This document shows, one piece after another, positions 1-34,051 of a stretch of 64,000 nucleotides of DNA. The DNA comes from a virus: the IMG/VR virus record IMGVR_UViG_3300020204_000019, positions 1 to 64,000 of that record. One strand, 5' to 3'. How positions within the stretch are numbered: position 1 is the first letter of the stretch; the number at the start of each line of letters is the position of its first letter. The notes under the pieces were generated by a model. That model ran no database searches and was not told the origin of the DNA. It saw only the letters and a list, made by a program, of their open reading frames with translations. Position numbers and translations under genes: made by a program.

Positions 1-137
1 AACCCACCTATGAGTTAACTGAACTATCCGAAAAGTCTGCTCAAGATGTGGCTTATTGGATAAAGTCGCAGGCGGGATTATCTTTTGTCGTTAAATATCA
101 GGGCAGGGATATATCCGCCCTTTTCATTCCTAGCTAA
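1..137 (+). CDS. 3' end of a hypothetical protein (partial)
   Basis: The frame beginning at base 3 is open from the left edge of the window and ends at TAA 135-137, giving the last 44 residues of a protein whose start lies outside. The tail reads ...AQDVAYWIKSQAGLSF and so on and shows no recognisable motif. It lies on the same strand as the next gene, with 39 bases between them. Confidence 0.55.
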   Translation, partial: PTYELTELSEKSAQDVAYWIKSQAGLSFVVKYQGRDISALFIPS

Positions 138-151
138 ACCTTCTCCCCAAA

Positions 152-173
152 GGGGGGAAAGGATAATCCCCCC
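152..173 (+). promoter_or_regulatory. G-run/C-run hairpin just before the 177 start codon
   Basis: GGGGGGA (152-158) pairs with TCCCCCC (167-173), with the loop AAGGATAA holding the only Shine-Dalgarno-like sequence. The start codon follows three bases later. Folding would bring the loop ribosome-binding site close to the ATG. It could also end the upstream transcript, but no T-run follows, so a leader role is as likely. Confidence 0.4.
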
Positions 174-176
174 TCT

Positions 177-683
177 ATGAAAAAAGACCTCTTCTCCGCT
201 TGTTTTGAAGACGCTAAAAAAGCTGATCCCTCTGTCACAAACACTCAGGTACAGGAAATCTTCTGCCGTGTGTGCAAAAATAGAGAGTGCGGTAGGGCAT
301 CTTGGGCTACTTCAACTTGGGATACACGCATCTCCACTCAGGTAGACCGACTTATCCTAAACCCTAATATCACTTCAGCCACGGATAGCTCTCGATGGCA
401 AGGACTATCCAATTTCGAGAACTTCGTAGAGCCCAATAAGATAGAAGTGTGGGGGAACACGCCCAAAGAAACACCCCCCTTAATTATAATAGACCCTAGC
501 CCAATTCCTCCTCAGGTCCAACCGAATACTTCGCAGGTACAATCGCCTAAGGCGAGTGCTTTTAATACGCCACCACCTAATGGAAGCCTTCTGCTAGGTG
601 GAAACACACAACCTAAACCCGATCCTTGGGCTGCCCCTACACCTAAACTAAAGGTGGGGGGGACTTTCAAGATGGGAGGATAA
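177..683 (+). CDS. Cys-rich N-terminal domain protein with Pro-rich tail
   Basis: A 168-residue protein of unknown function. Residues 1-90 form a compact domain that begins DLFSACFEDAKKADP and contains the cysteine pattern FCRVCKNREC (about residues 29-38), which could bind a metal. Residues 100-168 are rich in proline, glutamine and glycine and look disordered. From memory, similar Cys-containing openings occur in proteins of other large phages, but I could not check this. The gene starts a plus-strand run; its stop is one base before the next gene, so the two are probably cotranscribed. Confidence 0.7.
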   Translation: MKKDLFSACFEDAKKADPSVTNTQVQEIFCRVCKNRECGRASWATSTWDTRISTQVDRLILNPNITSATDSSRWQGLSNFENFVEPNKIEVWGNTPKETPPLIIIDPSPIPPQVQPNTSQVQSPKASAFNTPPPNGSLLLGGNTQPKPDPWAAPTPKLKVGGTFKMGG

Positions 684-684
684 T

Positions 685-900
685 ATGATAGAACTAGTTA
701 TTACTCAGATGTATCGAGACGGATATAAAGTAGTAGTCCCAACCCAACTGAAGCCTAAACTACGCTTACTGCCTTATGTAGATAAGTGCGTCTACACAGA
801 CCCCGAAGAAATTAAAACAGGTGATCGCTTGGTCTTTGTTGATTGGGTCAACTCGACCGATACCGACAAGGCGAAGTGGATGAAGCACTTTGTATCTTGA
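685..900 (+). CDS. Hypothetical 71-residue protein
   Basis: A small protein with no recognised domain. The ATG is preceded by GGGAGGA at a good distance, and the gene abuts 177-683, which supports translation. The sequence is mixed, with a basic first half (KPKLRLLPYVDK) and no membrane segment. It overlaps the next reading frame by 11 bases. Confidence 0.6.
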   Translation: MIELVITQMYRDGYKVVVPTQLKPKLRLLPYVDKCVYTDPEEIKTGDRLVFVDWVNSTDTDKAKWMKHFVS

Positions 901-1231
901 GTGGAAAGTGTCCCCGCAGGGCTTGATACCCACCGACATACTCTTAGACTTCTTAGCTAAGAAACCCGAAGCTATCCAAGAAGCCAAAGATTGGGTCAAC
1001 AGGAACGGACGGATTATCCTATTTACCAAGAGCAAAATAAATGGGGATGAGGATATTTGGGTCACAGATCAGGGTGAGATAATCCTGCGTACCAAGAACC
1101 ATTGTAAAATCCCTCAACTCAGAATCCTCGCCTTTCATACCAACATGGATGTCTACCGACAAGTCTTAGCTCTCGGACAAGACCTGAACGAAGTCATAAA
1201 TTTGTTAAAAAAACATGAACCCTTGTTTTAA
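890..1231 (+). CDS. Hypothetical 113-residue protein
   Basis: Unrecognised soluble protein. The reading frame overlaps the end of 685-900 by 11 bases; the first possible start is TTG at 890 and no strong ribosome-binding site decides it, so the true start may be a few codons downstream. The C-terminal half (…QVLALGQDLNEVINLL…) looks helical. Position suggests the same operon as the two genes before it. Confidence 0.55.
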   Translation: MYLEWKVSPQGLIPTDILLDFLAKKPEAIQEAKDWVNRNGRIILFTKSKINGDEDIWVTDQGEIILRTKNHCKIPQLRILAFHTNMDVYRQVLALGQDLNEVINLLKKHEPLF

Positions 1232-1289
1232 GGGTATTATAAGGGTACTTGAGGGGTTATCAACCCACCCCCCCTCTTTGGAGTTAGTC

Positions 1290-1481
1290 ATGAGTGCAAC
1301 CATGTCTCAGCGTATCGCGTCCCTTAAGAACCTAATCATCGAGATCGAGAGCGATGCTCAGAAGTCCGACAACGGCAACAAGGCAGCAGGTGTCCGTGTC
1401 CGTAAGGCTCTTCTTGAGGCTGTTAATCAGATCAAGGATGCTCGCAAGGCTTCTCTTGAGGGTCGTACAGAGAACGAGTAA
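1290..1481 (+). CDS. Hc1/histone H1-like DNA-binding protein
   Basis: A 63-residue, lysine- and arginine-rich protein. The core GNKAAGVRVRKA (residues 29-40), followed by a helical basic segment, matches the Hc1 family, known from the chlamydial histone H1-like nucleoid protein and small H1-like proteins of Bacteroidetes. Such proteins bind and compact DNA. The start is set by GGAG at 1280-1283, six bases before ATG 1290; in-frame codons upstream lack a ribosome-binding site. Codon choice is strongly biased (CGT, ATC, AAG, GCT), unlike most neighbours, suggesting high expression. A strong bidirectional terminator follows directly. Likely role: packaging of phage DNA or remodelling of the host nucleoid; the choice between these is inference. 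Confidence 0.75.
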   Translation: MSATMSQRIASLKNLIIEIESDAQKSDNGNKAAGVRVRKALLEAVNQIKDARKASLEGRTENE

Positions 1482-1504
1482 TACCCAACAAGATTAAGTG
1501 CCGA

Positions 1505-1548
1505 GACAAACCCCCCTTGAGGTTATAAGTCCTCAAGGGGGGTTTGTC
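1505..1548. terminator. Bidirectional intrinsic terminator
   Basis: Perfect 18-bp inverted repeat beginning GACAAACCCCCC with an 8-base loop, followed by TTTAT on the plus strand and preceded by A-rich sequence in the opposite sense. It sits between the converging Hc1-like gene and the deaminase gene, so it can end both transcripts. Confidence 0.85.
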
Positions 1549-1549
1549 T

Positions 1550-1906
1550 TTATAAGACACCCCAAGAGCCATCCCATAAGGTGTACTTCACTCGACTAAG
1601 CTGGCTAGCCCTTATGTGTTTAAGACAATGAACACAAGGTCTAGCCATCGTTGTGGAACCATCCTTTAAAAACCTCAAGACCTCAAGGGTATCCCCAGGT
1701 TGGGAGAACCTCAAAGCGGACATCTCAGCATGAAGTGTACAAACTACCGTACCATCAGCCGCTATTCTCCTGAACCTAGGGTGTGTCTTATCTGTGTTCA
1801 CTCCAATATAGACAGGCTTACCCCTTCTGTATAGCACACAGGCTACATGATACTTCCCCCCATTCGACAGGGCTAATTCCATAGCTTGTTTATGTATGGG
1901 TTTCAT
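1550..1906 (-). CDS. Cytidine/deoxycytidylate deaminase-like zinc enzyme
   Basis: About 118 residues (121 if GTG at 1915 is used). It carries the zinc-deaminase signature: HAE (His-Ala-Glu, near residue 60) supplying one zinc ligand and the catalytic glutamate, and PCVHC (about 30 residues later) supplying two cysteine ligands. The fold family includes dCMP deaminase, cytidine deaminase and tRNA deaminases. In a phage the usual role is converting dCMP to dUMP for thymidylate supply, but the protein is shorter than typical dCMP deaminases and lacks a recognisable effector site, so the substrate is open. It is transcribed convergently with the Hc1-like gene. No strong ribosome-binding site decides between the two starts. 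Confidence 0.75.
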   Translation of the reverse strand: MKPIHKQAMELALSNGGKYHVACVLYRRGKPVYIGVNTDKTHPRFRRIAADGTVVCTLHAEMSALRFSQPGDTLEVLRFLKDGSTTMARPCVHCLKHIRASQLSRVKYTLWDGSWGVL

Positions 1907-1929
1907 CTGTCTCACACTAAGGTTGCCAT

Positions 1930-2346
1930 ATGGATATCTCTCGGGTCATCCAAGATTGTCTTGACCTCACTTGGACTCCACAACAAGCCCGCGTTAGAGT
2001 TATAGAGTACAACCCCGCAAAGGAATCCCTGTCCTTATCTTTTGAAGCACAACTCACAATCATCCACACCCACCACACAATATCCATTTCAGCCCACAAC
2101 GCATACTACACCTACATCTATACCTTCTTCCCCAAAGGTAAACCAAGAAATATAAAAGGTAACGGACTAGTCCACCACCAACACGACTTGGACACACAAC
2201 TAGACGCTTTATTGTTGGAAGTTATCCGTGAGGCAGCGGAACACGCTACAAACTCTACGAATATCAAAATCCTAAAAGCACTTATCCAAGCTCAACCCAA
2301 CAAGTCCTTCCTGCGGAGGATATATGATAGGCTCTGTCACCGATAG
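1930..2346 (+). CDS. Hypothetical 138-residue protein
   Basis: Unrecognised. ATG is preceded by AAGG eight bases upstream, and the gene is divergent from the deaminase with only about 23 bases between starts. The middle is rich in histidine, threonine and tyrosine (IIHTHHTISISAHN), the C-terminus is basic (FLRRIYDRLCHR). No signal peptide or membrane helix. Confidence 0.6.
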   Translation: MDISRVIQDCLDLTWTPQQARVRVIEYNPAKESLSLSFEAQLTIIHTHHTISISAHNAYYTYIYTFFPKGKPRNIKGNGLVHHQHDLDTQLDALLLEVIREAAEHATNSTNIKILKALIQAQPNKSFLRRIYDRLCHR

Positions 2347-2482
2347 TCTGATCTCCCTTTTTCCCCTCATCTATCAGAAAGTATCGAGGTTTAAAATGTG
2401 GGACTGTTTCTATAGTGAAGAACTGCTAATGTGTGTCTGCATTTTGATTGATACACTCACTCTCGCTTAGAATTCAAAGAAC

Positions 2483-2929
2483 ATGAAAACATACGCTTTC
2501 TTATCCAATAAGTCGCAGCTCTCCGAAAAAGATGTTAGACGGATACCCAAACTAGCCCTATTTTTATCCAATAAGGGTTTCACGCTGTGTACTCGAAATG
2601 AGCATCCCGCTGAAATGCTCATACAGGAAGCAACACCTAACAAGGTCATCCTAGAGCACGGCGTAAACTACTGCGGATACTTTTCCGATAAAACACTTAA
2701 ACTAGGCTCCGAGATTTGTCCTATTACCCTCAATACGCCTAGTATTGAGATATCCAACAAGCTCAAGAACATCCTTCTCCTTGAGGGGCGAGACTTCTTT
2801 GTTTATCTAGCAGACACTCCCGATGAACATCTAGCAGTCTCACTTAGTGCCGCTTCCTCCTTCGGCATCCCCACCTATTCCATGTCTACTCAGGAAACGG
2901 AGTTGGCTCTGTTTCTCAACAGCCTATAA
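2483..2929 (+). CDS. Hypothetical protein, possibly Rossmann-like (SLOG-type)
   Basis: A 148-residue protein opening MKTYAFLSNKSQLSEKDVRR. The pattern of a beta strand, a helix with LALFLSNKGFTL, and later FFVYLADTPDEHLAVSLSAASSFGIPTY is reminiscent of SLOG/DprA-type Rossmann folds in which a nucleotide or its derivative is bound; the resemblance is weak and the glycine-rich loop is not clear. A strong terminator follows five bases after the stop codon, so this is the end of a transcript. Confidence 0.55.
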   Translation: MKTYAFLSNKSQLSEKDVRRIPKLALFLSNKGFTLCTRNEHPAEMLIQEATPNKVILEHGVNYCGYFSDKTLKLGSEICPITLNTPSIEISNKLKNILLLEGRDFFVYLADTPDEHLAVSLSAASSFGIPTYSMSTQETELALFLNSL

Positions 2930-2933
2930 AATC

Positions 2934-2979
2934 GTAAGGGATTTGACCCTTGGTTTTACCCTTGGGTCAAATCCCTTAC
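2934..2979. terminator. Intrinsic terminator
   Basis: Perfect 16-bp inverted repeat beginning GTAAGGGATTTGACCC with a 14-base loop. It lies directly after 2483-2929 (plus) and downstream of the minus-strand tRNA-Val, so it may serve both. Confidence 0.75.
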
Positions 2980-3041
2980 AACACCACGCACACCAACCTA
3001 GGGCTGGTGGCTCTGCCCACACGGAATTATGCAGGTCAGAG

Positions 3042-3114
3042 TACGACCAACAGGACTTGAACCTGTGACATTCACGGTGTAAGCGTGACGCTCTACCAAC
3101 TGAGCTATAGTCGC
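3042..3114 (-). tRNA. tRNA-Val (anticodon TAC)
   Basis: Full cloverleaf on the minus strand: acceptor GCGACTA pairing with TGGTCGT, D-arm GCTC/GAGC, anticodon stem TCACG/CGTGA with loop CTTACAC, T-arm ACAGG TTCAAGT CCTGT and discriminator A. The anticodon TAC reads GTA. The CCA end is not encoded. It lies alone, 29.6 kb from the three other tRNA genes. Confidence 0.93.
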
Positions 3115-3191
3115 ATCTCCACACTTATACCAAATTTAAATTCTCTTTCAATCTTTTTCAGGTTATCCGAACTACAAATCCGAATCCTTTG

Positions 3192-3222
3192 GGGGTTTTA
3201 TTGACTTGGAGAATAAAACCCC
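3192..3222 (+). promoter_or_regulatory. Leader hairpin upstream of the 3237 gene
   Basis: GGGGTTTTATT (3192-3202) and AATAAAACCCC (3212-3222) form a perfect 11-bp stem with a 9-base loop. The ribosome-binding sequence AAGGGAG follows at once, and CCTT just before the stem could pair with its AAGG, which would partly hide the site. Confidence 0.5.
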
Positions 3223-3236
3223 AAGGGAGAGTGCAG

Positions 3237-4172
3237 GTGAACGATCTATTTTGGGTTTGGTGGTGCGATAGACTTTGGGATAACCTAATCGTTTCGGACG
3301 AGGCTCGGTTTAAAGAAGCCCTTAATAAAGGCATTCTGCCGCTTATTGAAGACAAAGTATTTAAGATACTAAGCGAGTGTAGCGGAAACCACACTTGGAG
3401 AGCCGAGAGAGTCCTACAGAGGGCATCAGCTATTCATAATGATCCATATAGAGCCTGTGATCTGCTGTCTGCGATCTTAGACCTCTCTTGTGATAGGGCG
3501 TTTATAGCTGAATTCCACAATGATATATATCGAGAGGATCAAATCATGAGTTGCACCATATCGCCCGCCTCCGTTATTACAAGAGAAGGCAACCTTTGGG
3601 TGATTGACGGAAAGACAAAGGTCTCGGATTTAGACCAATGCAAAACACTCAAGTCTATCCCTAAATCGGATGTCGAAGCCGCTCCCTCAGAACCTTTGAG
3701 CCCTGTAGTCATTCAGCCTCCACCACAACCTATTGTTCAAACCCAACCTATTGTTCAAACCCAACCGATTGTTCAGCAACCAAGCCAAGACCCGCTAGAG
3801 CTAGACCTTGTACAAGTTATCCGCTTGGCAGGAGACAATGTATGGCTCGCCGCTTTACTTGTCATGGCTGTCCTAGCTAAGAAATACATCGACAAGCTAG
3901 AACTATCCAAAGCCACACAAGAACAGTTAAACTCTCAATGTCACGAAAGACACCAAGAAGCACTTAATCAGGTTGGCACCATCAACCAAGGCTTATCCAA
4001 TGTCACTAGAGAAGCCAAGGAATTGGATAGTAAGGTACGGGGCGAATTGGGGAAGCAAATGTCCGACCTAGAGAAAAGACTTCTCGCTGTAGAGATGGAG
4101 CTAAGATATCAGAAACCCGCTGCATCTCCCGTAGGTCGTCCGAAGAAAAATCCAACCGAGGATAACACCTAA
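3237..4172 (+). CDS. Single-helix membrane protein with C-terminal coiled coil
   Basis: About 311 residues from GTG 3237, chosen because AAGGGAG lies about seven bases upstream; a TTG start at 3189 would fall in the leader hairpin. The N-terminal half is a soluble domain with several Trp and Cys residues; then comes a proline/glutamine linker with three copies of PIVQ, a hydrophobic segment (WLAALLVMAVLAKKYI) and a long coiled coil with CHERHQEA. The same order (soluble domain, acidic/proline linker, short membrane helix, C-x2-RHQ, coiled coil) occurs in 39380-39985, so the two are diverged paralogues. The function is unknown; such proteins could act in virion attachment, membrane remodelling or lysis. 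Confidence 0.65.
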   Translation: MNDLFWVWWCDRLWDNLIVSDEARFKEALNKGILPLIEDKVFKILSECSGNHTWRAERVLQRASAIHNDPYRACDLLSAILDLSCDRAFIAEFHNDIYREDQIMSCTISPASVITREGNLWVIDGKTKVSDLDQCKTLKSIPKSDVEAAPSEPLSPVVIQPPPQPIVQTQPIVQTQPIVQQPSQDPLELDLVQVIRLAGDNVWLAALLVMAVLAKKYIDKLELSKATQEQLNSQCHERHQEALNQVGTINQGLSNVTREAKELDSKVRGELGKQMSDLEKRLLAVEMELRYQKPAASPVGRPKKNPTEDNT

Positions 4173-4173
4173 A

Positions 4174-5070
4174 TCACAGGAAGTTTCGGGGCGAAAGAAC
4201 GCCGCGTCCCGTGTGAGGTCCAAAGGCAGACCTGATGCCCACACCGTATTTGGGTTGTTGCAGTCCACGCATGAATTTTGTTGTGCGTGTTTTTGCTTCA
4301 ACGGAAGATTGCCACATAGATTCGGCGGATGATTTTAGTCCTTCATATTTGGAGGATTTGTCAATACTGAGAGAGATGCCTCCTATGGAGTAATCAAACT
4401 CATCTACTATCCAATTCGCTTGTAAAGCCATAGCCGCGAATTGGATAGCTCCTTGTAAGATGGGAGTTCTCCAAGCGGGTTTTTGTAGGATGAGTTGATC
4501 GAGATTGGAAATATCTTCAGTTTCAGGGGGCTGCATATTCCACCAATCGAGCGATCTTTCTAGGTACTCTAGAAGTTCTTCATCTTCCCAAACTTGCCCG
4601 AAGACTCTGTTGTAGTTGTTGATGTGGGATTCGTTTTCAGGGGGTCTAAAGTGATAAAACTTATCGGGATTAGAATCTCTTAAAAGCATACGGAGCTTAT
4701 AGACCATGGTCTTTTGACCTTCGGTCATGGAAACACCAAGAACAACAGCATCGGATACCACTTCAAACTCTTGAACTACGGTTTGAGGTGGGGAATTAAC
4801 TAGTTCTTTAAGCGTCCATCTTATCCTATATCGTCCAAAAGTCGCGGTTGTGGGGATACGGACGGAGGCATAGTATTCACCTACTGACGGGTTTTCGGGT
4901 ATCCGTGCGGGGTCACCTATCAACACATCTGTTTCAGGTGGTCCAATATCCACAAAGTAAAGTGCGTAAGTAATCTCTGCCGCATTGGATACATTCCCTG
5001 CGGAGTTGGTTAAAAATATATCCAAATCTCCCCGACCAAGAATTTGATCCCTTTTGAATACAACAGCCAT
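4174..5070 (-). CDS. Probable virion structural protein
   Basis: A 298-residue protein. Residues 1-110 look like a beta-sandwich (repeated strands, LDIFLTNSAGNVSNAAEITYA, ...RYRIRWTLKE) of the kind found in phage head and tail decoration proteins. Residues 115-298 are helical and contain NPDKFYHFRPPE and a tryptophan-rich segment (SLDWWNMQPPETED). I recall similar architecture in head-proximal proteins of large phages but cannot assign a part of the particle. The start ATG follows GGAGGT, which is buried in a 7-bp hairpin (5076-5103). Convergent with 3237-4172, one base apart. Confidence 0.6.
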   Translation of the reverse strand: MAVVFKRDQILGRGDLDIFLTNSAGNVSNAAEITYALYFVDIGPPETDVLIGDPARIPENPSVGEYYASVRIPTTATFGRYRIRWTLKELVNSPPQTVVQEFEVVSDAVVLGVSMTEGQKTMVYKLRMLLRDSNPDKFYHFRPPENESHINNYNRVFGQVWEDEELLEYLERSLDWWNMQPPETEDISNLDQLILQKPAWRTPILQGAIQFAAMALQANWIVDEFDYSIGGISLSIDKSSKYEGLKSSAESMWQSSVEAKTRTTKFMRGLQQPKYGVGIRSAFGPHTGRGVLSPRNFL

Positions 5071-5075
5071 TATTT

Positions 5076-5103
5076 ACCTCCTGTAATTCCTAACAAAGGA
5101 GGT
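5076..5103 (-). promoter_or_regulatory. Hairpin enclosing the ribosome-binding site of the 5070 gene
   Basis: On the minus strand ACCTCCT pairs with AGGAGGT, and the second arm is the Shine-Dalgarno sequence six bases before ATG 5070. The 7-bp stem would have to open for initiation. Confidence 0.6.
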
Positions 5104-5164
5104 TTAATAAATGCTTTAACGCTCAACCCCGACCGCCAGCACTTAAAACTTAGTCATAGAGGGA

Positions 5165-5623
5165 TCAGTAGCTCATATCTAACCCAAATTTGGCATTACC
5201 GTTCTTGTCAGTCTCCATTCTAAGGGATAAGCGGCGTGTAGTTGCACCGGCCAAGGAGTTGGTAAAAGTGACCTCAACAGCGATGGTCGGTTCCTCTTGG
5301 GACCAGCCATCATAGCTATGTCCAGGGTGGGTGGAGATACCCGTCACCGCAGCATAGATGCTATTGAGATCGCTCCAATCCTCAATCTCTAGCTCGGAGT
5401 CAAGCTTCCCATATACGAAATTCTCAAGACTCTCACCTACGGATTTCCAATAGACGGTCTTGCCGTGGCTCCTGCGGAACGCGGCTATGTACTTTTCACC
5501 CATTAACTGAGCCAGTTCTTGGAGGGTCTTGGCACCACGAGCTGAGGTCTTGGTACGACCTTCGAGGCGAGCAACGCGAGCCTCAAGGCTCTGTAAAACT
5601 TCCGATGCGGTTCTTCTGATCAT
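5165..5623 (-). CDS. Protein with arginine-rich N-terminal leader (paralogue of 33659)
   Basis: About 152 residues from ATG 5623 (GGAG eight bases upstream). The first residues, MIRRTASEVLQSLEARVARL, are nearly identical to those of 33659-34051 while the rest differs. The leader is a basic amphipathic helix. The body (AQLMGEKYIAAFRRSHG ... NFVYGKLDSELEIEDW ... SLAGATTRRLSLRME) has mixed alpha/beta character and no known domain. A shared leader on unrelated bodies suggests a targeting or packaging tag, for instance for inclusion in the virion, possibly removed by a phage protease; this is inference. Confidence 0.65.
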   Translation of the reverse strand: MIRRTASEVLQSLEARVARLEGRTKTSARGAKTLQELAQLMGEKYIAAFRRSHGKTVYWKSVGESLENFVYGKLDSELEIEDWSDLNSIYAAVTGISTHPGHSYDGWSQEEPTIAVEVTFTNSLAGATTRRLSLRMETDKNGNAKFGLDMSY

Positions 5624-5758
5624 GATCAAATCTCCAAAGGATTAATGGATAGGGGATTATCCATTTACGCCCTTGGCGGGTACTATAAATAAACTATAAG
5701 TTTTCCGACTATGTGTCGGTAATCTGAGACGGCAACCATTGACTGAGTGAGGTATCTT

Positions 5759-5971
5759 ATGGTGATTGACTTGGCGGAGGGTTCATTTAACGCGAGGAAG
5801 GTAGCGTTGCAGATAGCGTTAGAGTTTGTAACGAGAACAAGACCAGCGGGTAAAATGACAGAGGTGGAAGAACTTGTAAGAGTAGCGGCTGTGATAGAGG
5901 ATTATCTACAGCCTATGAGCGAGGATTGTTCAGGTGATGTGGATGGATATGAGGATGGCATCACAGACTAG
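5759..5971 (+). CDS. Hypothetical 70-residue acidic protein
   Basis: ATG 5759 is preceded by GAGG six bases upstream; a GTG four codons earlier is less likely. The protein starts MVIDLAEGSFNARKVALQIA and ends in an acidic tail (DCSGDVDGYEDGITD). Unrecognised. The upstream region has a small hairpin (CCGAC...GTCGG) and, further up, TATAAATA at 5684-5691. It ends exactly where the minus-strand membrane-protein gene ends. Confidence 0.5.
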   Translation: MVIDLAEGSFNARKVALQIALEFVTRTRPAGKMTEVEELVRVAAVIEDYLQPMSEDCSGDVDGYEDGITD

Positions 5972-6484
5972 TTAGTCCTTGGGCTCTTCTGTTTTGGGTA
6001 TCCATTCATTAACGATGTTGGGAAGGACAACATCTTGTTCTTTCTTTGTCCTGATCGGGGGCTGTCCATTTGCGAAAATGGACAATCTTTCAATAACGGC
6101 ATTTTGTAGTTCAAAGACTTGTTCCCTTAAGAGTTGCATTTGGATTTGGGCATCTCTTAGGCGAGCGATGAGAGCGGCACGATCAGCATTAGCTGTGGAG
6201 AGTTTATCTTTAAGGTCTTCGACTTCGCTTGGGTCTCTTCCGCTAGCGATGGCGAGCATACTAGAAATAGACCCTGTAAGCATTCCGATGATGCCGATCA
6301 AAATATCCCTGTTTTGTTCTACTATCTGAACATAGGATAAAAAGATGATAAGGGCGACAATAAGGAACATGAAAACTACACTTGCCCACCAGCCCCGTTT
6401 CGCCTTTTCTGTTTGTGTGAATTGCTTATTGTTCATGGTGGGTTTGTTTATTGGTGGAGCGGGGGTCTTTTGCGGCGTGTTCAT
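5972..6484 (-). CDS. Two-helix membrane protein coupled to the cyclase
   Basis: A 170-residue protein. Two hydrophobic helices are visible at about residues 33-53 (ASVVFMFLIVALIIFLSYV) and 61-81 (ILIGIIGMLTGSISSMLAIA), joined by a short turn, followed by a coiled coil at about 88-135 and a charged tail. The topology is holin-like or effector-like. Its ATG overlaps the stop of the upstream cyclase gene (ATGA), so the two are translationally coupled. No cyclic-nucleotide-binding domain is visible, which separates it from the known Pycsar membrane effectors. Proposed role: membrane partner or target of the cyclase; alternatively a holin or antiholin that merely shares the operon. Confidence 0.7.
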   Translation of the reverse strand: MNTPQKTPAPPINKPTMNNKQFTQTEKAKRGWWASVVFMFLIVALIIFLSYVQIVEQNRDILIGIIGMLTGSISSMLAIASGRDPSEVEDLKDKLSTANADRAALIARLRDAQIQMQLLREQVFELQNAVIERLSIFANGQPPIRTKKEQDVVLPNIVNEWIPKTEEPKD

Positions 6485-7350
6485 TTGATACTCTTCCTGA
6501 GTAGATTGAGGACTTGTGTATACACGGCTTTGACGAAGTTGTTGACATCATCAATCCAATCGAATGACTGAAGTCCCGAAACTTCTCGAAGGAAAGGGCT
6601 TGAGAGCAGGAAGTAGATAAGACATATCCATAGAAATCCGCATATCCACAAGAGTTTGTAATAGAGAAACCAAAGTCGTTCTTTTCGTGTAAGGTTAACC
6701 CAACGGATTTTTGATTTTTTGAGCCCTTTTATTCTCTTTGCCTTTTCCGTATCGGGGGGAGGATCAAGGCTTTCAAGTGTTTCCCCTACGGCATAAATCT
6801 CTTGGGCTTGTCGAACACCCTTAAACTTGTACCTGCCTACACAAACATATCGGGTATTGGGTGGAGTGTCTTTATTGGTGCGGAAACGGATAACATTCAT
6901 GGCTTCTCTTGTCAGGAGAACCTGTCCCGATACGCATAAGGACATGGTACGAGCAGCGATGTTTTTAGCCAATCCCTCTAGCTCTATCCGTTTTGCATTT
7001 GCAGCTACCCACACATCATCCTGATGGACTTCGATGATTTTATCCCAATGGATACCTACCCTAGCCCCAATCCCTGTGACAGGCGGGATTGTCTTTTGGT
7101 AGACGAGAGCGAAGTTGACTGCATCTATGACATTTTCAAAGGAGCATAAGAAACCATCGGAGCGGTCTATTTCTCTACCCCTGAAGCGATATAACAATGA
7201 CCTAGTTGCTCTATCATGCTTTTGAAAGTGAAGTGCTGCGGCTTTTGCTCCATACTTTTGGACAAATGCTGTTGAACCTATTAGGTCTAGCAACAAAATC
7301 GCTAGCTTACGCTCCTCCATCCACACACCACTTTTCGGTGGTTCTACCAT
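6481..7350 (-). CDS. Class III nucleotide cyclase with C-terminal membrane helix
   Basis: 289 residues from ATG 7350, chosen because GGAGGT lies seven bases upstream; an earlier ATG at 7383 has none. Residues 14-190 form a class III (adenylate/guanylate-type) cyclase domain: LLLDLIGST (metal ligand Asp22), GREIDRSDGF (second metal Asp65), ARVGIHWDKI, and AKRIELEGLAKNIAARTMSL with the conserved arginine, then a YKFKGVRQAQEIYAVG tail typical of the family. The residues that select adenine in classical enzymes are not in their usual form, so the base of the product cannot be assigned. A hydrophobic segment at about 226-250 anchors the protein in the membrane. It overlaps the two-helix membrane gene by four bases. 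Cyclases are rare in phages; signalling, or interference with host cyclic-nucleotide defence, are both possible. Confidence 0.8.
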   Translation of the reverse strand: MVEPPKSGVWMEERKLAILLLDLIGSTAFVQKYGAKAAALHFQKHDRATRSLLYRFRGREIDRSDGFLCSFENVIDAVNFALVYQKTIPPVTGIGARVGIHWDKIIEVHQDDVWVAANAKRIELEGLAKNIAARTMSLCVSGQVLLTREAMNVIRFRTNKDTPPNTRYVCVGRYKFKGVRQAQEIYAVGETLESLDPPPDTEKAKRIKGLKKSKIRWVNLTRKERLWFLYYKLLWICGFLWICLIYFLLSSPFLREVSGLQSFDWIDDVNNFVKAVYTQVLNLLRKSIK

Positions 7351-7441
7351 TTTTACACCTCCACCGCTATTAGATAAAACCATCCAATAATAGAAGCTCT
7401 ATCGGGGTTGTGCGTATGTGATCATAGGGGGGCAAGAACAG

Positions 7442-7852
7442 ATGAACCAACCTGCCTTGATAGACTTCTTAGCCGACTTGAAGACTCAAATAAGTCCTCA
7501 CAATGGTCGGCTTGTTCAGACACAAGAAGAAGTGTCGCTTAAAGGAATATCTGTATCCAAAATGGATAAGTCTGCATATGGGCTTACATTATCCATAAAA
7601 CTCTTGAACCCACCTCGCTTATCCATTACACATAAGAATAAGGTCTTAGTTGAGACGGATAATTGGAGGGACATAACTGATCCCACGAGAGACCCTAGAT
7701 TTAAGCATCTTATAACGAGCTATCTACACAAAGCCTTTGATAAAGTATCCGATAAGGATAAATACATGGGATTGAGTTCAATAGAAGGGGAAGGAACGAT
7801 GAAGAGGGCGGAAAGTATCCGCAGGGTAGTTAAGGCTTACTTAGGAGACTGA
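7442..7852 (+). CDS. Hypothetical 136-residue protein
   Basis: Start placed at ATG 7442, with AGGGGGG about nine bases upstream; a GTG at 7418 is possible. The sequence is mixed alpha/beta, ending in a helix (MKRAESIRRVVKAYLGD). No known domain. The gene carries eight copies of GGATA/TATCC in 411 bases. Its last 23 bases overlap the end of the convergent gene 7830-8336. Confidence 0.6.
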   Translation: MNQPALIDFLADLKTQISPHNGRLVQTQEEVSLKGISVSKMDKSAYGLTLSIKLLNPPRLSITHKNKVLVETDNWRDITDPTRDPRFKHLITSYLHKAFDKVSDKDKYMGLSSIEGEGTMKRAESIRRVVKAYLGD

Positions 7853-8336
7853 TCCTTAACTCTTGGGAGGGGATGTCCCAAGATACATCTTCAACCAACT
7901 CAGGGAAGTTATCGTAGAGCTTCTTAAAATCACCAAAACTTGGTGTTACCTCCAACAAGGGAGCAAAGACAAGATATCGGTCTTGTTTATCCAAGACCTG
8001 CCACGCCTGCACCAAGTATCCATTCTGATCTGTCCAAAGCCCTCCAAACTCGTACTGCGTATATTGGATAAGTTCCTCGATATTGGCAGGTTGTGTACTC
8101 GATTGGGAGAACACTTCCCATCCCCAAGGTTTGTTATCACCTGAGACAATCAGATGAAACAAGCGGTCAAAAGATTGAGCACAGAAATCTTTTAGTTGTT
8201 CCCGCTCCTTTTCACATCCATCGAGTGCAGTTATTTGATTGGACACTATGTACTGCCCAAGACACTTCAGCACAAGATCAAGAACCTGATCCTGTTGCTC
8301 TGCGGTTAGCTTAGTCCTATGAAACATATTATCCAT
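7830..8336 (-). CDS. Hypothetical 168-residue protein
   Basis: The start at ATG 8336 is preceded by GGAGAAGGA; upstream in-frame codons lack this. The protein begins MDNMFHRTKLTAEQQDQVLD and has a helical first third, then tryptophan-rich segments (NKPWGWEVFSQ, FGGLWTDQNGYLVQAWQVLD). No known domain was recognised. The gene is convergent with, and overlaps, 7442-7852. Confidence 0.6.
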   Translation of the reverse strand: MDNMFHRTKLTAEQQDQVLDLVLKCLGQYIVSNQITALDGCEKEREQLKDFCAQSFDRLFHLIVSGDNKPWGWEVFSQSSTQPANIEELIQYTQYEFGGLWTDQNGYLVQAWQVLDKQDRYLVFAPLLEVTPSFGDFKKLYDNFPELVEDVSWDIPSQELRISLLSKP

Positions 8337-8411
8337 TCCTTCTCCATCCTTATGCGTGTGGTATGATGTGTAGTCCCCCTGTCCCCCACCCACATCTCAA
8401 AGGTTATGTTT

Positions 8412-8597
8412 ATGTCCGAGACTGCACTTTATATTTATGCGATTCTTCTACCTAGCGGTGACATAGCTTCAACACCAAGCGGCTCTTTTTTTACTAGCAG
8501 GGAAACGGCTCGTCAAGCCAAGAAACTTCTCTCCTTCGAGAACGCTCAGGTTGTTCGAGTTCCTGTGAAGAGTTCGTCTTGGGAGCGTGTTCGATAG
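8412..8597 (+). CDS. Small protein similar in pattern to the 19188 product
   Basis: About 61 residues; AAAGG lies eight bases before ATG 8412 (ATG 8406 is too close). The body contains FFTSRETARQAKKLLSFENA and ends QVVRVPVKSSSWERVR. The 67-residue protein at 19188 has the same layout: a short beta opening, then F-x-S-x-x-E/T-A-x-Q-x-A-K-x-L, then a valine-rich strand. They may be distant paralogues of unknown function. Confidence 0.55.
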   Translation: MSETALYIYAILLPSGDIASTPSGSFFTSRETARQAKKLLSFENAQVVRVPVKSSSWERVR

Positions 8598-8610
8598 TAT
8601 TTTTATTATT

Positions 8611-8641
8611 TCTCTCTCTAGGAAATCATCACTAGGAGAGA
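8611..8641 (+). promoter_or_regulatory. Hairpin enclosing the ribosome-binding site of the 8646 gene
   Basis: TCTCTC-CTAG pairs with CTAGGAGAGA (10 bp with one bulged T, 10-base loop). The second arm contains AGGAG, the Shine-Dalgarno sequence of the TTG start at 8646. Confidence 0.5.
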
Positions 8642-8645
8642 TAAA

Positions 8646-10703
8646 TTGCACGGATATTTCCGCAGGATCGCAAGTCATACGCACTTACAAGGTGTTAAAG
8701 TTAAGTATACTGATTTTGGGATAAGATACCCCGGTACATTCGATATGGGGGAAACCGTAGAGAGAGCAAAAAAGGTCTTAAATGGAGCCTCAATATCCGT
8801 TTTCAATAGCGATATTGAGGCAGTTCATAGGCTGTTCCTCTTTGTCTATACTAGAGTAGCTTTTCCATCAAATAAACTCAGCTTCATGAAGAAGTTTAGT
8901 AAGACTGAGGGTTTCGGTAAGAGGTTCAAAAAAATTACAACTGCGAAGGCTGCCGATTTTCTGGATAATCCGGACAAGAGGGAAGCGTTGAAGGCTCTAT
9001 TAGAGTTGGCAACCTATCCTTTGGTAACGGATCACGAAATAACGGCAGGTCCGTTTAAAATCCAAAACCCAACGAATCTTCCTAGACAGGATGTCGAAAC
9101 TGCCCAAAAGGTTATTGCCAAACTAGCCAAATACGCAACCAACGATGTTATCCCAAACTTCACAAAAGTCTTGTACGGAGATGTAATTCTTTCACCTCCG
9201 CTAGCAGCCTCAGGGGTTCTTGCCACCTATGACCCTTCTTTGGATTTCATCACTTTTTACACGCATAAAACATTATTTGGAGGGAAGATAGGTCTAAGGA
9301 CCCTTTTACATGAGCTAGGACATCGCTACTATAGAACAATGGAAGCCCCAAAAAAAATGGAGTGGGCTCAATGGCACATACAGGCTTTAAAAGGTGGTTC
9401 GGGTGCCGCTAATTTTGAGGCGAACAAAACCGCCATGCTAGGCGTTCAGGTGAAGGCTTCTTTTGTTGTTAACGACGACCCTCGTCCCTCCGCCCCCCCG
9501 AGTTTTATACAGGCTCTTTCCTTTGTAGGAAAGGGAAAACTATATTATATAGTCTCTGCTTCGACAGCGGAACAAACTAACCCTGGGTGTACTCGGAGGA
9601 TACTTTCATCTAGAGATTACGAAGGAAAAGGGATGGATAATACCTATGGGATAGTACAAAACAATAAGTTGGGGGGCTTTTTTCATCCCATATCCACTCG
9701 TGAGTTAGACAGGTTAACCCGCATGGCAATAGAACTAACTTTGATAGAGGGTGCAATAGACCGTGGTCTCTTGCCCACCCGATACGCGAGAACTAACTCG
9801 GAAGAACACTTTTGTGAGGCTTTGTCTTTTAGAGCAGTTGGTGACCTGCCTGAGATTATGTCTGAGAAGTTTGAGATGATATTCTTTGGTTCTCGGAAAC
9901 ATTTGGTTGTTCCGTCTGAAACAGAGTTAACCGTTGACATTCCAACCCCCACAGCCCCAATAGCTCCCACAGCCCCCACAGAAGTATCCGCTGCTGTAGG
10001 CTCAAAGAGCGAAATGGATAAGAAAGGGAATGGACTTGCCCAAGGGCTTGGGTTATCCTATGTGAGTGGGCGTAAGTACGGAACCTTCGTGTACACGAAC
10101 AATGAGACACTAAGCACTCATGCCTATATGTTCTTGGACTATGCTTCAGGCAACCTGTTTGTACCCAAGACAAAAGCCTTCCCCAACCTTGATGTGAATA
10201 TCGCTAACCTATTGGATAAGGATGTGGCAGACGCTACTTCATTTACCCGTATGAGTAAACTCCGCCCCAAGTGGAGAACACAAGCGACCATAGAAGAAGG
10301 CATCGCTCCTGCTCACGACCCTCAGACTCCTGTAGTCCCTGATCTGACACCTCAAGTCTCAGATCAGGAGATGGAGCCTGATCTACCACAACCCCCTGAG
10401 CAAGTATCCGTTGATGTGGTAACGGCTTCAACTAATGCGGCTAAGTTGTTGGGGATGTCTGCCGAAGTGTTGCGTAAATATGTACGCATCAGATATCTGA
10501 ACGAACAACTAGGTGACCCTCATGCTTATTTGTTTGTAGCCAAATCCGATGGTGCCATCTATACGCCCAAAGCGGGACACCAAGCCTCTACTGAGATGAT
10601 TGGGAATATCTTTGAACCCAACATCATCAGCAAGATATTGCCCACTTCTTTGTACAAAAACGATAAGTGGAAAACCAAGTTCACCATAGTGGAGACCGTC
10701 TAA
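8646..10703 (+). CDS. Zincin metalloprotease with duplicated C-terminal domain
   Basis: 685 residues from TTG 8646, with AGGAG seven bases upstream. The zinc-protease motif LLHELGHRYY places HExxH at residues 222-226 (zinc ligands His222 and His226, catalytic Glu223); a later EEHFCEALSFRAVG probably gives the third ligand. After a proline/alanine/threonine linker (PTAPIAPTAPT) come two similar C-terminal repeats, one with THAYMFLDYASGNLFVPK and one with PHAYLFVAKSDGAIYTPK. The N-terminus (HGYFRRIASHTHLQG) is basic. This is one of three unrelated-looking zincins in the window. Probable roles are virion-protein processing or a virion-borne protease acting on the host; the substrate is unknown. 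The ribosome-binding site is inside a hairpin, and the next gene overlaps the stop (TAATG). Confidence 0.75.
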   Translation: MHGYFRRIASHTHLQGVKVKYTDFGIRYPGTFDMGETVERAKKVLNGASISVFNSDIEAVHRLFLFVYTRVAFPSNKLSFMKKFSKTEGFGKRFKKITTAKAADFLDNPDKREALKALLELATYPLVTDHEITAGPFKIQNPTNLPRQDVETAQKVIAKLAKYATNDVIPNFTKVLYGDVILSPPLAASGVLATYDPSLDFITFYTHKTLFGGKIGLRTLLHELGHRYYRTMEAPKKMEWAQWHIQALKGGSGAANFEANKTAMLGVQVKASFVVNDDPRPSAPPSFIQALSFVGKGKLYYIVSASTAEQTNPGCTRRILSSRDYEGKGMDNTYGIVQNNKLGGFFHPISTRELDRLTRMAIELTLIEGAIDRGLLPTRYARTNSEEHFCEALSFRAVGDLPEIMSEKFEMIFFGSRKHLVVPSETELTVDIPTPTAPIAPTAPTEVSAAVGSKSEMDKKGNGLAQGLGLSYVSGRKYGTFVYTNNETLSTHAYMFLDYASGNLFVPKTKAFPNLDVNIANLLDKDVADATSFTRMSKLRPKWRTQATIEEGIAPAHDPQTPVVPDLTPQVSDQEMEPDLPQPPEQVSVDVVTASTNAAKLLGMSAEVLRKYVRIRYLNEQLGDPHAYLFVAKSDGAIYTPKAGHQASTEMIGNIFEPNIISKILPTSLYKNDKWKTKFTIVETV

Positions 10704-11173
10704 TGGATACCGATTTAGTCACTAAAATATCTAGTCTAGTAGCGGAAGTGAACGACCCCGAGTCTCTGCTTGAGTGGTGGGACTCTGTTCCCAACACGCC
10801 TGCTATTCCAACTTATTGGAAACGCAAAGGTGAAAGGGCTGTTCTTCTGTCCTTTGGCTCAAGGGGTTCTATTATTGACCTTCGGCAATACACCACAATA
10901 TTGGGCAGGGAGAAAACGCTCATCATAAATGGATGGATCAGTACCCCCACCTTTATCGCTCTCACCATAGACCCAAATGGGCTCCCTTCACAGGCTCTCT
11001 ATCCGTTTCTCATCGTAGCCACATCAAGTGATTTCTTTGACCCTGAACGGATGGACTATGATGTTAAGACTCTCAAGCGTAATCCTATAAATCACTCCGT
11101 CCAAGCCACTATTGGATATGCTGATAGGATGCGTAAGAAAGTCCGCTTTGATGTGCCTCAAGACTTGTTCTAA
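10703..11173 (+). CDS. Hypothetical 156-residue protein
   Basis: Its ATG overlaps the stop codon of the metalloprotease gene (TAATG), so it is translationally coupled. The opening is acidic (MDTDLVTKISSLVAEVND), the middle is beta-rich with AVLLSFGSRGSIIDLRQY, and the end is basic (GYADRMRKKVRFDVPQDLF). No domain was recognised. The coupling suggests a job together with the protease, for instance as an inhibitor, chaperone or substrate; this is inference only. Confidence 0.6.
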   Translation: MDTDLVTKISSLVAEVNDPESLLEWWDSVPNTPAIPTYWKRKGERAVLLSFGSRGSIIDLRQYTTILGREKTLIINGWISTPTFIALTIDPNGLPSQALYPFLIVATSSDFFDPERMDYDVKTLKRNPINHSVQATIGYADRMRKKVRFDVPQDLF

Positions 11174-11177
11174 GGAC

Positions 11178-11221
11178 AAGCGAGTATCCCAAACATCACT
11201 ATCCAATATTAGTGAGGTGAA
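11178..11221 (+). promoter_or_regulatory. GTATCCC-type promoter/leader of the 11248 gene
   Basis: GAGTATCCCAAA (GTATCCC at 11184-11190) lies 58 bases before the start codon and is followed by a hairpin TCACTA...TAGTGA and AGGTGA. It is one of seven matching sites in the window. Confidence 0.5.
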
Positions 11222-11247
11222 CGACCCATCTTAACAAGGATTTTCCC

Positions 11248-11688
11248 ATGTTGGTCAATTGCCCCCATTGTCAGTTGCCTTATGTCAAAGAGCAGTCTTA
11301 TCAGCGTTCCTGCATCTATTGTTGGAGAGAAGAACAAGGACACAAGCTCGGAACCGTGGATGCGGCTTTCCGCCGCCTTCAAGAAGAAGCTAAGAAGAAG
11401 ATCAATACTCCCCCTCTCCAACAGGTTGATATAAGGTCTCCTGACGCTTCGTTACAAATGAAGCTCCAAGCCACACAATTGCTGGTCAATTCTCTCGAAA
11501 AGGAGGTCAGCGAGTTAAAGCGGAAACTCGCTGAACGACCCGTTCCTCCGCCTCCTCCACCCTCTGCTGGTTCTCTCACACAAGATTCTATCCGTGAGTT
11601 AATCACACTTTGTCACCCCGATAAACACTCGAACTCTCCTCTAGCCACCAAGATAACGCAATGGTTAGTTTCTCTTAGGAGAAGATAG
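11248..11688 (+). CDS. Zinc-ribbon, coiled-coil and J-domain-like protein
   Basis: 146 residues. An N-terminal zinc ribbon has CPHC (5-8) and CIYC (22-25). A helical coiled-coil segment follows (about 70-95), then a run of prolines, then a C-terminal J-like motif, IRELITLCHPDKH, with HPD at 123-125 and a helix ending TQWLVSLRRR. HPD is the DnaJ signature that stimulates the ATPase of Hsp70, but only helices II and III of a J domain seem present. The protein may recruit host DnaK for phage assembly or takeover. AAGGA precedes ATG by eight bases, and a GTATCCC-type promoter lies upstream. Confidence 0.65.
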   Translation: MLVNCPHCQLPYVKEQSYQRSCIYCWREEQGHKLGTVDAAFRRLQEEAKKKINTPPLQQVDIRSPDASLQMKLQATQLLVNSLEKEVSELKRKLAERPVPPPPPPSAGSLTQDSIRELITLCHPDKHSNSPLATKITQWLVSLRRR

Positions 11689-11696
11689 GATAAGAA

Positions 11697-11918
11697 ATGA
11701 TAACCTGTGATCTCTGCCAAAAGACCTGTAACGAGTACTATGTACACGAGCTAGCTCCTGATATTATGCTTTGTCCCGTCTGTAGACGGATGAGTGCGGC
11801 AGAAGTCGTGAGACACTATCTTAGTGCCTCATGGTCGAAGTGTCATAAGACAGGATTAGCCTGTAGGACGGGAACCTGTGAAACCTGTAAGGACATTGAG
11901 GTTAGCCAAGAGAAATGA
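11697..11918 (+). CDS. Small double zinc-ribbon protein
   Basis: 73 residues with nine cysteines arranged as CDLC, CPVC and later a CRTGTCETCK cluster, plus histidines, consistent with one or two zinc sites. Such phage zinc ribbons often bind nucleic acid or host RNA polymerase, but no function can be assigned. It starts eight bases after the 11248 gene and its stop overlaps the next start (ATGA), so it belongs to the same operon. Confidence 0.65.
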   Translation: MITCDLCQKTCNEYYVHELAPDIMLCPVCRRMSAAEVVRHYLSASWSKCHKTGLACRTGTCETCKDIEVSQEK

Positions 11919-12373
11919 GTTCTCTCAAAGCGTCGGATACTTCACGCCACTCTGCCGTAGCGGCAGAGAAGGCAATAGAATTCGTGGAGGCTCGCCTTCC
12001 TGAGATACATGACCTGTTCTCCATAGAGAAGGCTAATAATGCCATCAAGGAAGCCCGCGATGCTATCTTATCCGTAGATAGAGCAATCGCGAATGTGGTA
12101 AGGGCATCTCAAGCCTTGGACGAAGCCCGAGCCTCTTTACAAGATGCCGTTCGATCTTGTAGGATCGCGAGCGAAAGAGCTTTCAGTTCCACCCCTGTTA
12201 TCCTATCTGACACAACACCTTCAGAAGACCTTGTTGTCGGGCAGAAGGTGATTGTTCAAAATAGGTACAGAACCACCATATCTGAAGGTTTTGTAACTGA
12301 TGTAAATGACGACTTTGTTTGGGTAAGGGGCGAGATTTTTAGCACGGAAGATCATATCTTCGTAGCCGTGTAA
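11915..12373 (+). CDS. Coiled-coil protein with C-terminal beta domain
   Basis: 152 residues. Residues 10-95 are a long alanine/arginine/glutamate-rich helical region (AIEFVEARLPEIHDLFSIEK ... ARASLQDAVRS). The last 50 residues (VVGQKVIVQNRYRTTISEGF ...) look like a small SH3- or Tudor-like barrel. Function unknown. Overlaps the preceding gene by four bases; the next gene has its own GTATCCC-type promoter. Confidence 0.6.
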   Translation: MSSLKASDTSRHSAVAAEKAIEFVEARLPEIHDLFSIEKANNAIKEARDAILSVDRAIANVVRASQALDEARASLQDAVRSCRIASERAFSSTPVILSDTTPSEDLVVGQKVIVQNRYRTTISEGFVTDVNDDFVWVRGEIFSTEDHIFVAV

Positions 12374-16647: not shown

Positions 16648-16700
16648 CTTTTATTCATTTATAATGCTCAATGAATGGATACAACACAAAGGATAGTGCA

Positions 16701-17012
16701 ATGAGAAATGAGATAATCCGCCTCCACAGAAGAATAGCCCGTCTAGAGCGTATTGCAGGTACAACCAAGTCCGCAGGGGGAGTGAAAGAACTCCTTATGG
16801 ATTCGGTGGCAAAGAACAAGAATAAGCTGATTAAGGCGTGGGGGGGCAATCCCAACGATATAGACCTTGAGTTATGGTTTCAAAGTCTAGACGGTGGTGA
16901 TGTCTATGGAGCCCTTAGGGATGCTCCCAACAGGGAGGTTGCCAAGATCATCAAGAACGACATCATCAAACCCATCGAGGATGACTCGATGGATGAGGAT
17001 GTTCCCTTTTAA
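16701..17012 (+). CDS. Small protein with arginine-rich helical leader
   Basis: 103 residues from ATG 16701, chosen for AAAGGA seven bases upstream (an ATG at 16671 is also in frame). The N-terminus MRNEIIRLHRRIARLERIAG resembles the R-x-x-x-L-E-x-R-V-x-R-L-E leader of 5165-5623 and 33659-34051. The body contains AWGGNPNDIDLELWFQSL and an acidic tail (DDSMDEDVPF). Function unknown; probable member of the leader-tagged set. Confidence 0.6.
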   Translation: MRNEIIRLHRRIARLERIAGTTKSAGGVKELLMDSVAKNKNKLIKAWGGNPNDIDLELWFQSLDGGDVYGALRDAPNREVAKIIKNDIIKPIEDDSMDEDVPF

Positions 17013-31315: not shown

Positions 31316-31398
31316 CCAACACTTAGTTCGAAAGCCTGTTCTTTCAGCTTGAAGGCTCCCCGCTCCATCTCCATTATTTCTCGGATATGGAAGCCATG
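31298..31398 (-). pseudogene. Truncated 3' copy of 29845-30183 (repeat copy B)
   Basis: Reads REIMEMERGAFKLKEQAF and ELSVGWAKTDS on the minus strand before running into a stop about ten codons later. It has no start of its own and its upstream edge is joined to the 3' end of the Dcm gene, whose last codons and stop read through it in another frame. Confidence 0.8.
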
Positions 31399-32573
31399 TG
31401 TTCTTTCAAGGAGTGTTTGATATTCTTGGCAATTTCTTGAAAGATAACAGTAGGAACCGATTCACCAAGCGATTGCCTAATCTTAAGCTCTTCTTTTTTT
31501 AAGAATTTTGTTTTATCAGCCAATGAGAGATTGTTTAGATATTCTAAATCATGAACTGCCCATTTGAAAGATGATGGAACCGTCATCATGCACATCAACT
31601 CTCGGATACTAAATACGCGGTCATCCGCAGGATGTATCGTATTTTGACTAGCGAGTTGGTCATTTCGAGTGTGAATGCAAGGGCCAATTTTATCCCAATA
31701 TTGACGCTTATATTTGTCACCATTTTTTTGTTGATTAATAACAATGCTTCCGTCTTTCACTTGGTGTGGTTTTTTATGATTGTCCTTGTTTTCAAATGCA
31801 GATTGCCCCTCTTTTAAATCACAAATCCACTCCCTCATGTGTTTTGGATAGACTCTAAAAGCATGATAAATATCATTTGAGTCAATTTCTCCGAGGATTT
31901 TAAGTGGTCTTAGGTGACCGATTACCTCTCTTAAAGTATTCTCTTTTTTTAACGATGGATATAAGTCATATGGTGATATATCATCTGCTAACTCATTCAA
32001 AACGCCAATAACTAATGTTCTTTGCCTACTTGAGCACGCTCCATGATTTTTGAAATTTATTGTTTTGGATATGTAAGAGTATTGTCCACCCAAGGCGTTT
32101 TTAATTGCACTCTCAATCGTTTTGTCCACATAATCAATATCCGTACAAATGGTTTTCATAAAAGCTGGGACATTTTCAAATATAAAAATTCTCGGCTTAA
32201 TTTTACTGATTAGTTTAATAGACTCTACCACCAAAGAATTTCTAATAATTTCATCACCTTTCTTATTATGATTGGCGACCGACATCCCTTGGCAAGGTGG
32301 AGTTGCGATAACAACATCAATCTGATTAACTTTCTCTTTTTTTTCCCACAGATCAATTTCTGCGATCACTTGAGATTTGATTTCATCAGTAGATATGTCC
32401 CCATAGATATATCCACTTCCATACTTACACTTAGTATTAAATCTTTGAATATCCAATCGTCTTTGAATTAATTCATTAGTAGCTACGCATTCAAAACCCT
32501 CTGATTTAAAACCATAACATCCGATGCCCGCACCGCTGAAAAGACTAATATATGTTAGTTTGTTTTTTTTCAT
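31374..32573 (-). CDS. dcm: C5-cytosine DNA methyltransferase
   Basis: 399 residues from ATG 32573 (GGAG 11 bases upstream; a start at 32642 is also in frame). The ordered motifs of DNA (cytosine-5) methylases are present: LFSGAGIG (motif I, 11-18), TPPCQGMS (motif IV, catalytic Cys94), FENVP (motif VI, 132-136) and GACSSRQR (motif VIII). The target-recognition region lies at about 240-330. The gene is markedly more AT-rich than its neighbours and its last 25 bases lie in a duplicated fragment of another gene, so it is probably a recent arrival. No partner restriction enzyme is adjacent, so a protective (anti-restriction) role is likely; the recognition sequence cannot be read from the protein. 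Confidence 0.9.
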   Translation of the reverse strand: MKKNKLTYISLFSGAGIGCYGFKSEGFECVATNELIQRRLDIQRFNTKCKYGSGYIYGDISTDEIKSQVIAEIDLWEKKEKVNQIDVVIATPPCQGMSVANHNKKGDEIIRNSLVVESIKLISKIKPRIFIFENVPAFMKTICTDIDYVDKTIESAIKNALGGQYSYISKTINFKNHGACSSRQRTLVIGVLNELADDISPYDLYPSLKKENTLREVIGHLRPLKILGEIDSNDIYHAFRVYPKHMREWICDLKEGQSAFENKDNHKKPHQVKDGSIVINQQKNGDKYKRQYWDKIGPCIHTRNDQLASQNTIHPADDRVFSIRELMCMMTVPSSFKWAVHDLEYLNNLSLADKTKFLKKEELKIRQSLGESVPTVIFQEIAKNIKHSLKEHMASISEK

Positions 32574-32675
32574 TTGTCTGTTTCTCCGTCGTTCGGTTGT
32601 GGGGGCTTTAACAACTAGGTTCAGTATAGTCTGAACACTCATAGGTCTTTCGTTCGGGTTCTCATTTCTTATGAA

Positions 32676-33658: not shown

Positions 33659-34051
33659 ATGATAAGAAGAACCGCTAGTGAAGTTTTAAGAAGCCTTGAG
33701 ATGAGAGTCTCCCGCCTTGAGGGTAAGACAGCGACTCGCAGAACCGCTGCCAAGAAAATCCGTTTGGATAGAAATGTGGAGCAGAGGGTGATGAGAGAGA
33801 TCGCTGATCGGTTTGACATAGAAATGGATGAAGACTCATATTATTGGCACAACCCTGTTTTTGAGGTTTTAGCTGAAGAAAAGGGTAGCCGCAATGTGTC
33901 CGAAGGTTCAATATTTCAGCTTCTAAAGCTAGCGAATGACGACTACTATGTGGTGCTACAGGTCATCCCTTTCGCAAATGACTCGGACATCATAGGTGTT
34001 TACGACAGCATCTCTGATGCCCTGCGTGATTTCAAGCTAGCCAACCGCTAA
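33659..34051 (+). CDS. Protein with arginine-rich N-terminal leader (paralogue of 5165)
   Basis: 130 residues. Leader MIRRTASEVLRSLEMRVSRL is nearly the same as in 5165-5623, followed by EGKTATRRTAAKK. The body (VEQRVMREIADRFDIEMDED ... VLQVIPFANDSDIIGVYDSI) is unrelated to that of 5165 and unrecognised. GGAG precedes ATG. The repeated leader suggests a common destination, perhaps the capsid interior. Confidence 0.65.
   Translation: MIRRTASEVLRSLEMRVSRLEGKTATRRTAAKKIRLDRNVEQRVMREIADRFDIEMDEDSYYWHNPVFEVLAEEKGSRNVSEGSIFQLLKLANDDYYVVLQVIPFANDSDIIGVYDSISDALRDFKLANR

Follow-up and report, generated by a model that had tools for sequence, protein, structure and literature searches.

A tail-less Hc1-core protein encoded behind the DNA polymerase A gene of an uncultured jumbo phage

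The hc1-like gene described here occupies positions 1290–1481 (+) of the window, that is, the whole 64,000-nucleotide stretch of the virus record IMGVR_UViG_3300020204_000019 that was analysed, whose source record is a 108.5-kb virus contig and probably a fragment. Its product of 63 residues (MSATMSQRIASLKNLIIEIESDAQKSDNGNKAAGVRVRKALLEAVNQIKDARKASLEGRTENE) holds the PF07432 core domain without a lysine-rich tail, and the ATG is preceded, at a spacing of 6 nt, by the ribosome-binding site GGAG (1280–1283, +). Identical copies of hc1 are present on three other contigs, among which G003 (110 kb) reaches 22 kb further upstream, and a diverged ortholog of 64 residues (86% identical), in which the ribosome-binding site is kept, is found on two contigs, G005 (290 kb) and one of 81 kb. 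An 88-residue frame from 1215 was discarded as the start of hc1, because a start codon is lacking at that point in the ortholog. No near-DNA match to deposited phages was obtained for positions 1–12,000 of the window.

Upstream of hc1 lie a DNA polymerase A gene (831 residues; PF00476, E 9e-67) and three conserved genes with no assigned function, which encode proteins of 168 residues (177–683, +; with a relative that also stands behind polA in the phage LR745208.1), 71 residues (685–900, +; 67% identical in G005), and 113 residues (890–1231, +; 58% identical in G005). Downstream, a hairpin at 1503–1550 is followed by a convergent dCMP/cytidine deaminase gene (1550–1915, −; PF00383, E 5.5e-8; phrog_174, dCMP deaminase). 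This order—polA, the three conserved genes, hc1, hairpin, and convergent deaminase—is common to the window phage and G005, two phages with 68% DNA identity. The intergenic region ahead of hc1 also holds a 14-bp element, GTATTATAAGGGTA (1234–1247, +), which is unchanged in the ortholog despite the divergence of the flanking intergenic DNA, and which may be a promoter or another cis element. A role as a recurrent phage promoter was ruled out, as the element does not turn up in a comparable setting elsewhere in the genome.

Other features of these phages concern genes at a distance from hc1. A common helical start, approximately M(I)RRTASEVLxSLExRVARLEGRTAS, is found on otherwise unrelated open reading frames of the window (5165–5629, −; 16671–17012, +; 33659–34051, +), and a start of the same type on G000 (80050–80475, 83073–83519, and 99637–100080), on the G003 locus L098 (39–614 and 6431–6766), and on six open reading frames of G005. 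As a guess from the sequences, it may be a shared targeting signal or a cleavable pro-sequence, perhaps for virion proteins. On L098, which belongs to a tailed-phage contig, an open reading frame about 18 kb upstream of hc1 (5017–6015) is a full-length match to the Pfam family Volactin (PF25216, E 4e-72), an actin-like family named from haloarchaea. Within the window, the product of 31374–32642 (−) resembles by eye a C5-cytosine DNA methyltransferase, and that of 34969–35853 (−) a Dam-like adenine methyltransferase.

Comparison with the G005 ortholog indicates how hc1 has evolved. Among 189 aligned bases, 38 differ between the two genes, and 28 of these differences fall on third codon positions, which corresponds to a dN of 0.086, a dS of 1.21, and a dN/dS ratio of about 0.07. 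The open reading frame at 1290–1481 is a real gene under purifying selection.

The first-pass annotation had proposed a phage-encoded member of the Hc1 family, to be checked with the corresponding profile, and this assignment holds. Residues 7–58 match PF07432 (Hc1) almost end to end (profile positions 2–54 of 57), scoring 53.3 bits where the cut-off is 23.5 (E 2.5e-14), and the core motif GNKAAGxRxRK with flanking Lys/Arg residues is present in three alignments. All 60 relatives collected also match Hc1, and a PHROGs search with the protein returned no match. The HctA equivalog NF051889 is not reached (27.4 bits against a cut-off of 100, over positions 8–39 of 121 only), and the lysine-rich C-terminal half of HctA is absent, as the window protein stops at residue 63. 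It is a short Hc1 core, new as a sequence, although proteins of this kind have already been reported from giant phages.

The same annotation had noted a basic helix and suggested that the protein could condense the phage genome or silence the host nucleoid; to see in it a strongly basic, genome-condensing protein goes too far. The protein is mildly basic (net charge +2, pI 9.3), some of its phage relatives are acidic, with a net charge down to −2, and a long basic tail is found in none of the 60 aligned proteins. For the chlamydial protein, dimerisation has been assigned tentatively to the N-terminal half, and nucleic-acid binding to the C-terminal half (Pedersen 1996, as cited in PMC3469542). 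Since the window protein is a core without that second half, it may not bind DNA by itself.

AlphaFold, supplied with 60 aligned sequences, predicts with confidence a helical hairpin composed of helices 5–27 and 31–60 (mean pLDDT 89, pTM 0.70). The conserved motif NKAAGVRVRK (residues 30–39; codons at 1377–1406, +) covers the turn of this hairpin and the start of helix 2 according to the prediction and the alignment of the 60 relatives. The invariance of residues K31–R36 stems, at least in part, from the pattern by which relatives were sought, as it called for these residues. Outside this pattern, conservation among the 60 relatives reaches 100% for R38, 98% for D22, 95% for K25 and K39, and 90% for K13. 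A conserved Lys/Arg cluster (K25, K31, R36, R38, and K39) surrounds the turn of the predicted hairpin. A fold search against the PDB and a viral library gave no significant match, the best viral ones having E values of about 0.05, and two of the matches, from an uncultured virus and Pseudomonas phage ZC08, are annotated as 'Histone H1'. A helical hairpin is too generic a fold for such a search, and no solved structure for the Hc1 family was found in the searches made.

By its share of optimal codons, hc1 stands out among the genes examined. Lysine is encoded by AAG (six of six), glutamate by GAG (six of six), isoleucine by ATC (five of five), and arginine by CGT or CGC (five of five); AGA and AGG, which account for 54% of the arginine codons of the phage, are not used. 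When scored with a preset list of optimal codons, those characteristic of bacterial genes with high expression, hc1 holds 17 optimal codons out of 18, compared to 7.3 expected from the phage's own usage (P 1.9e-6), and ranks first among about 120 open reading frames, which bears out the biased codons that had been noticed at first reading. Only this P value is used, because in a wider codon list the entries for Lys, Glu, and Gln were picked with hc1 already in view. Expressed as a departure from the average usage of the genome, or as high GC3, the bias is not significant (GC3 P 0.07). The G005 ortholog has 11 optimal codons out of 15 (P 0.05), which puts it in second place among 64 within its 60-kb stretch. 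As synonymous sites are near saturation between both genes and the bias is still present in G005, it seems to be maintained rather than to be a relic of recent transfer. This codon usage suggests high expression, with which it is consistent.

A strong terminator had also been taken as a sign of an abundant product. The terminator itself is real, consisting of a perfect 20-bp stem (−39.7 kcal/mol, z −8.9), and a hairpin of different sequence stands at the matching place in G005 (z −4.7). However, the genes on either side of it converge, and either strand forms the hairpin equally well, so that it says little about the abundance of the hc1 product. Membership of the core family, a conserved place behind DNA polymerase A, purifying selection, and a strong codon bias are established for this gene.

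Hc1 cores are widespread. They were found in 61 of 99 sampled genomes from the phylum of a Kapaibacterium genome (Bacteroidota), in 13 of 149 from that of a Phycisphaerales genome (Planctomycetota), in 67 IMG/VR loci, and in other huge uncultured phages, such as LR756500.1. The chromosomal proteins of both phyla are single-domain cores like the window protein, with the motif GNKAAGxRxR and no long basic tail in those examined, but they share about 28–42% identity with it over the alignment. Chlamydial HctA/Hc1 has a comparable N-terminal core (the match to profile positions 8–39 of 121), and differs in its lysine-rich C-terminal DNA-binding half. The tree (69 sequences, 63 columns) does not resolve the placement of the window's hc1, which forms a separate branch of poor resolution with no close bacterial donor. 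Shine-Dalgarno-like sites precede 58 of the 122 larger phage genes, compared to 9 at random positions, and their presence in about half of the larger genes is a mild argument against a Bacteroidota host.

Among phages, PF07432 proteins have been described in four complete moraphages, jumbo phages from aquatic metagenomes, where genome compaction during packaging was proposed (PMC12619734, 2025). These proteins raise the same question of function; the passages of that paper that deal with them do not discuss the missing tail, the gene context, or the codon bias. PF07068 (Gp23), used as a stand-in for the moraphage major capsid protein VOG00292, was found in G010 and G013 but not in G000, G003, or G005; the records searched may be fragments. 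Judging from the lack of a match to this T4-type capsid family in G005, the window phage probably belongs to another lineage than the moraphages. The Prevotella-infecting Lak phages also encode a short core above the Pfam cut-off (59 residues in MK250016.1, 290356–290532), and Hc1 is present in all 15 Lak records listed, although the Lak protein is 38% identical to that of the window, belongs to another lineage, and does not share its neighbour genes.

Among deposited phages, LR745208.1 (485 kb) encodes the polymerase (46% identity) and the SNF2-type helicase (56%) most similar to those of the window phage. A search for hc1 in LR745208.1 found none, which implies either gain or loss of this gene in the wider lineage. 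The polymerase A gene of LR745208.1 (L107, 6691–11967) is a 1758-residue open reading frame that, compared with the gene of the window phage, carries two insertions (about 1.1 and 1.3 kb), possibly inteins.

The reading we favour, at a probability of about one half, is that of an intracellular, probably dimeric, DNA-binding or DNA-bridging Hc1-core protein, abundant near the replication genes. Starting from a predicted hairpin, we infer dimerisation, DNA binding, abundance, timing, and target. The two-helix hairpin would dimerise, probably through its hydrophobic faces, leaving the basic cluster at the turn (K25, K31, R36, R38, and K39) to contact DNA. Produced abundantly next to the replication genes, the protein would attach to phage DNA, or bridge it, within the infected cell, perhaps with host DNA as a further target, so that replicating genomes would be organised or transcription damped. 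The same short proteins may act likewise on Bacteroidota chromosomes. Chlamydial Hc1 condenses DNA and lowers transcription, according to the literature summarised in PMC12619734 and PMC13317200. No binding data or biochemical work on the short form of Hc1 was found in the literature searched.

Alternatively, the hairpin may dimerise without binding DNA, and either partner replication proteins or exert regulation by binding RNA or ribosomes. This is unlikely, but has to be taken seriously because the tail is missing, and it would fit the low charge of the protein, its place behind polA, the dimerisation role proposed for the N-terminal half of Hc1 (Pedersen 1996, as cited in PMC3469542), and best fold matches that are generic hairpins, none of them significant. 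However, contact with nucleic acid explains the conserved Lys/Arg cluster at the turn more easily, and LR745208.1 keeps a related polA without hc1, so that this type of polymerase does not need it. Less likely still is a virion-internal protein, packaged with the genome to help DNA compaction or ejection in the head, in line with the abundance suggested by the codon bias and with the compaction during packaging proposed by the moraphage authors (PMC12619734). Against this, hc1 ends the DNA polymerase A gene cluster instead of standing among head or tail genes, its product lacks the N-terminal RRTASEVLxSLExRVARLE tag, a putative targeting or pro-sequence carried by at least eight other proteins of the phage, and with its charge of +2 it would neutralise little DNA. 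A host take-over factor that coats the host nucleoid and stops host transcription early in infection is similarly improbable: chlamydial Hc1 does condense the nucleoid and reduce synthesis in E. coli (literature cited in PMC12619734) and the predicted expression is high, but the sequence gives no hint of host rather than phage DNA as the target, and the protein lacks the half of Hc1 responsible for nucleic-acid binding in Chlamydia.

Returning to the DNA-binding core, a bolder and rather doubtful extension is that a tail-less Hc1 core, heavily expressed with the phage DNA polymerase, would constitute a phage-encoded chromatin on replicating jumbo-phage DNA, a function that would be common to several unrelated giant-phage lineages. 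Such a chromatin might, for example, shield the DNA from host nucleases or set early and late transcription. Genes for Hc1 cores recur in several lineages of large phages (moraphages, Lak phages, and others in IMG/VR) and in most of the Bacteroidota sampled; to these, the present copy adds a constant location after the DNA polymerase A gene, a codon bias more expression-like than that of any other gene examined, and the lack of the putative DNA-binding tail. Should the core prove to bind DNA by itself, the accepted two-part view of Hc1, with one half for dimerisation and the other for binding, would have to be revised.
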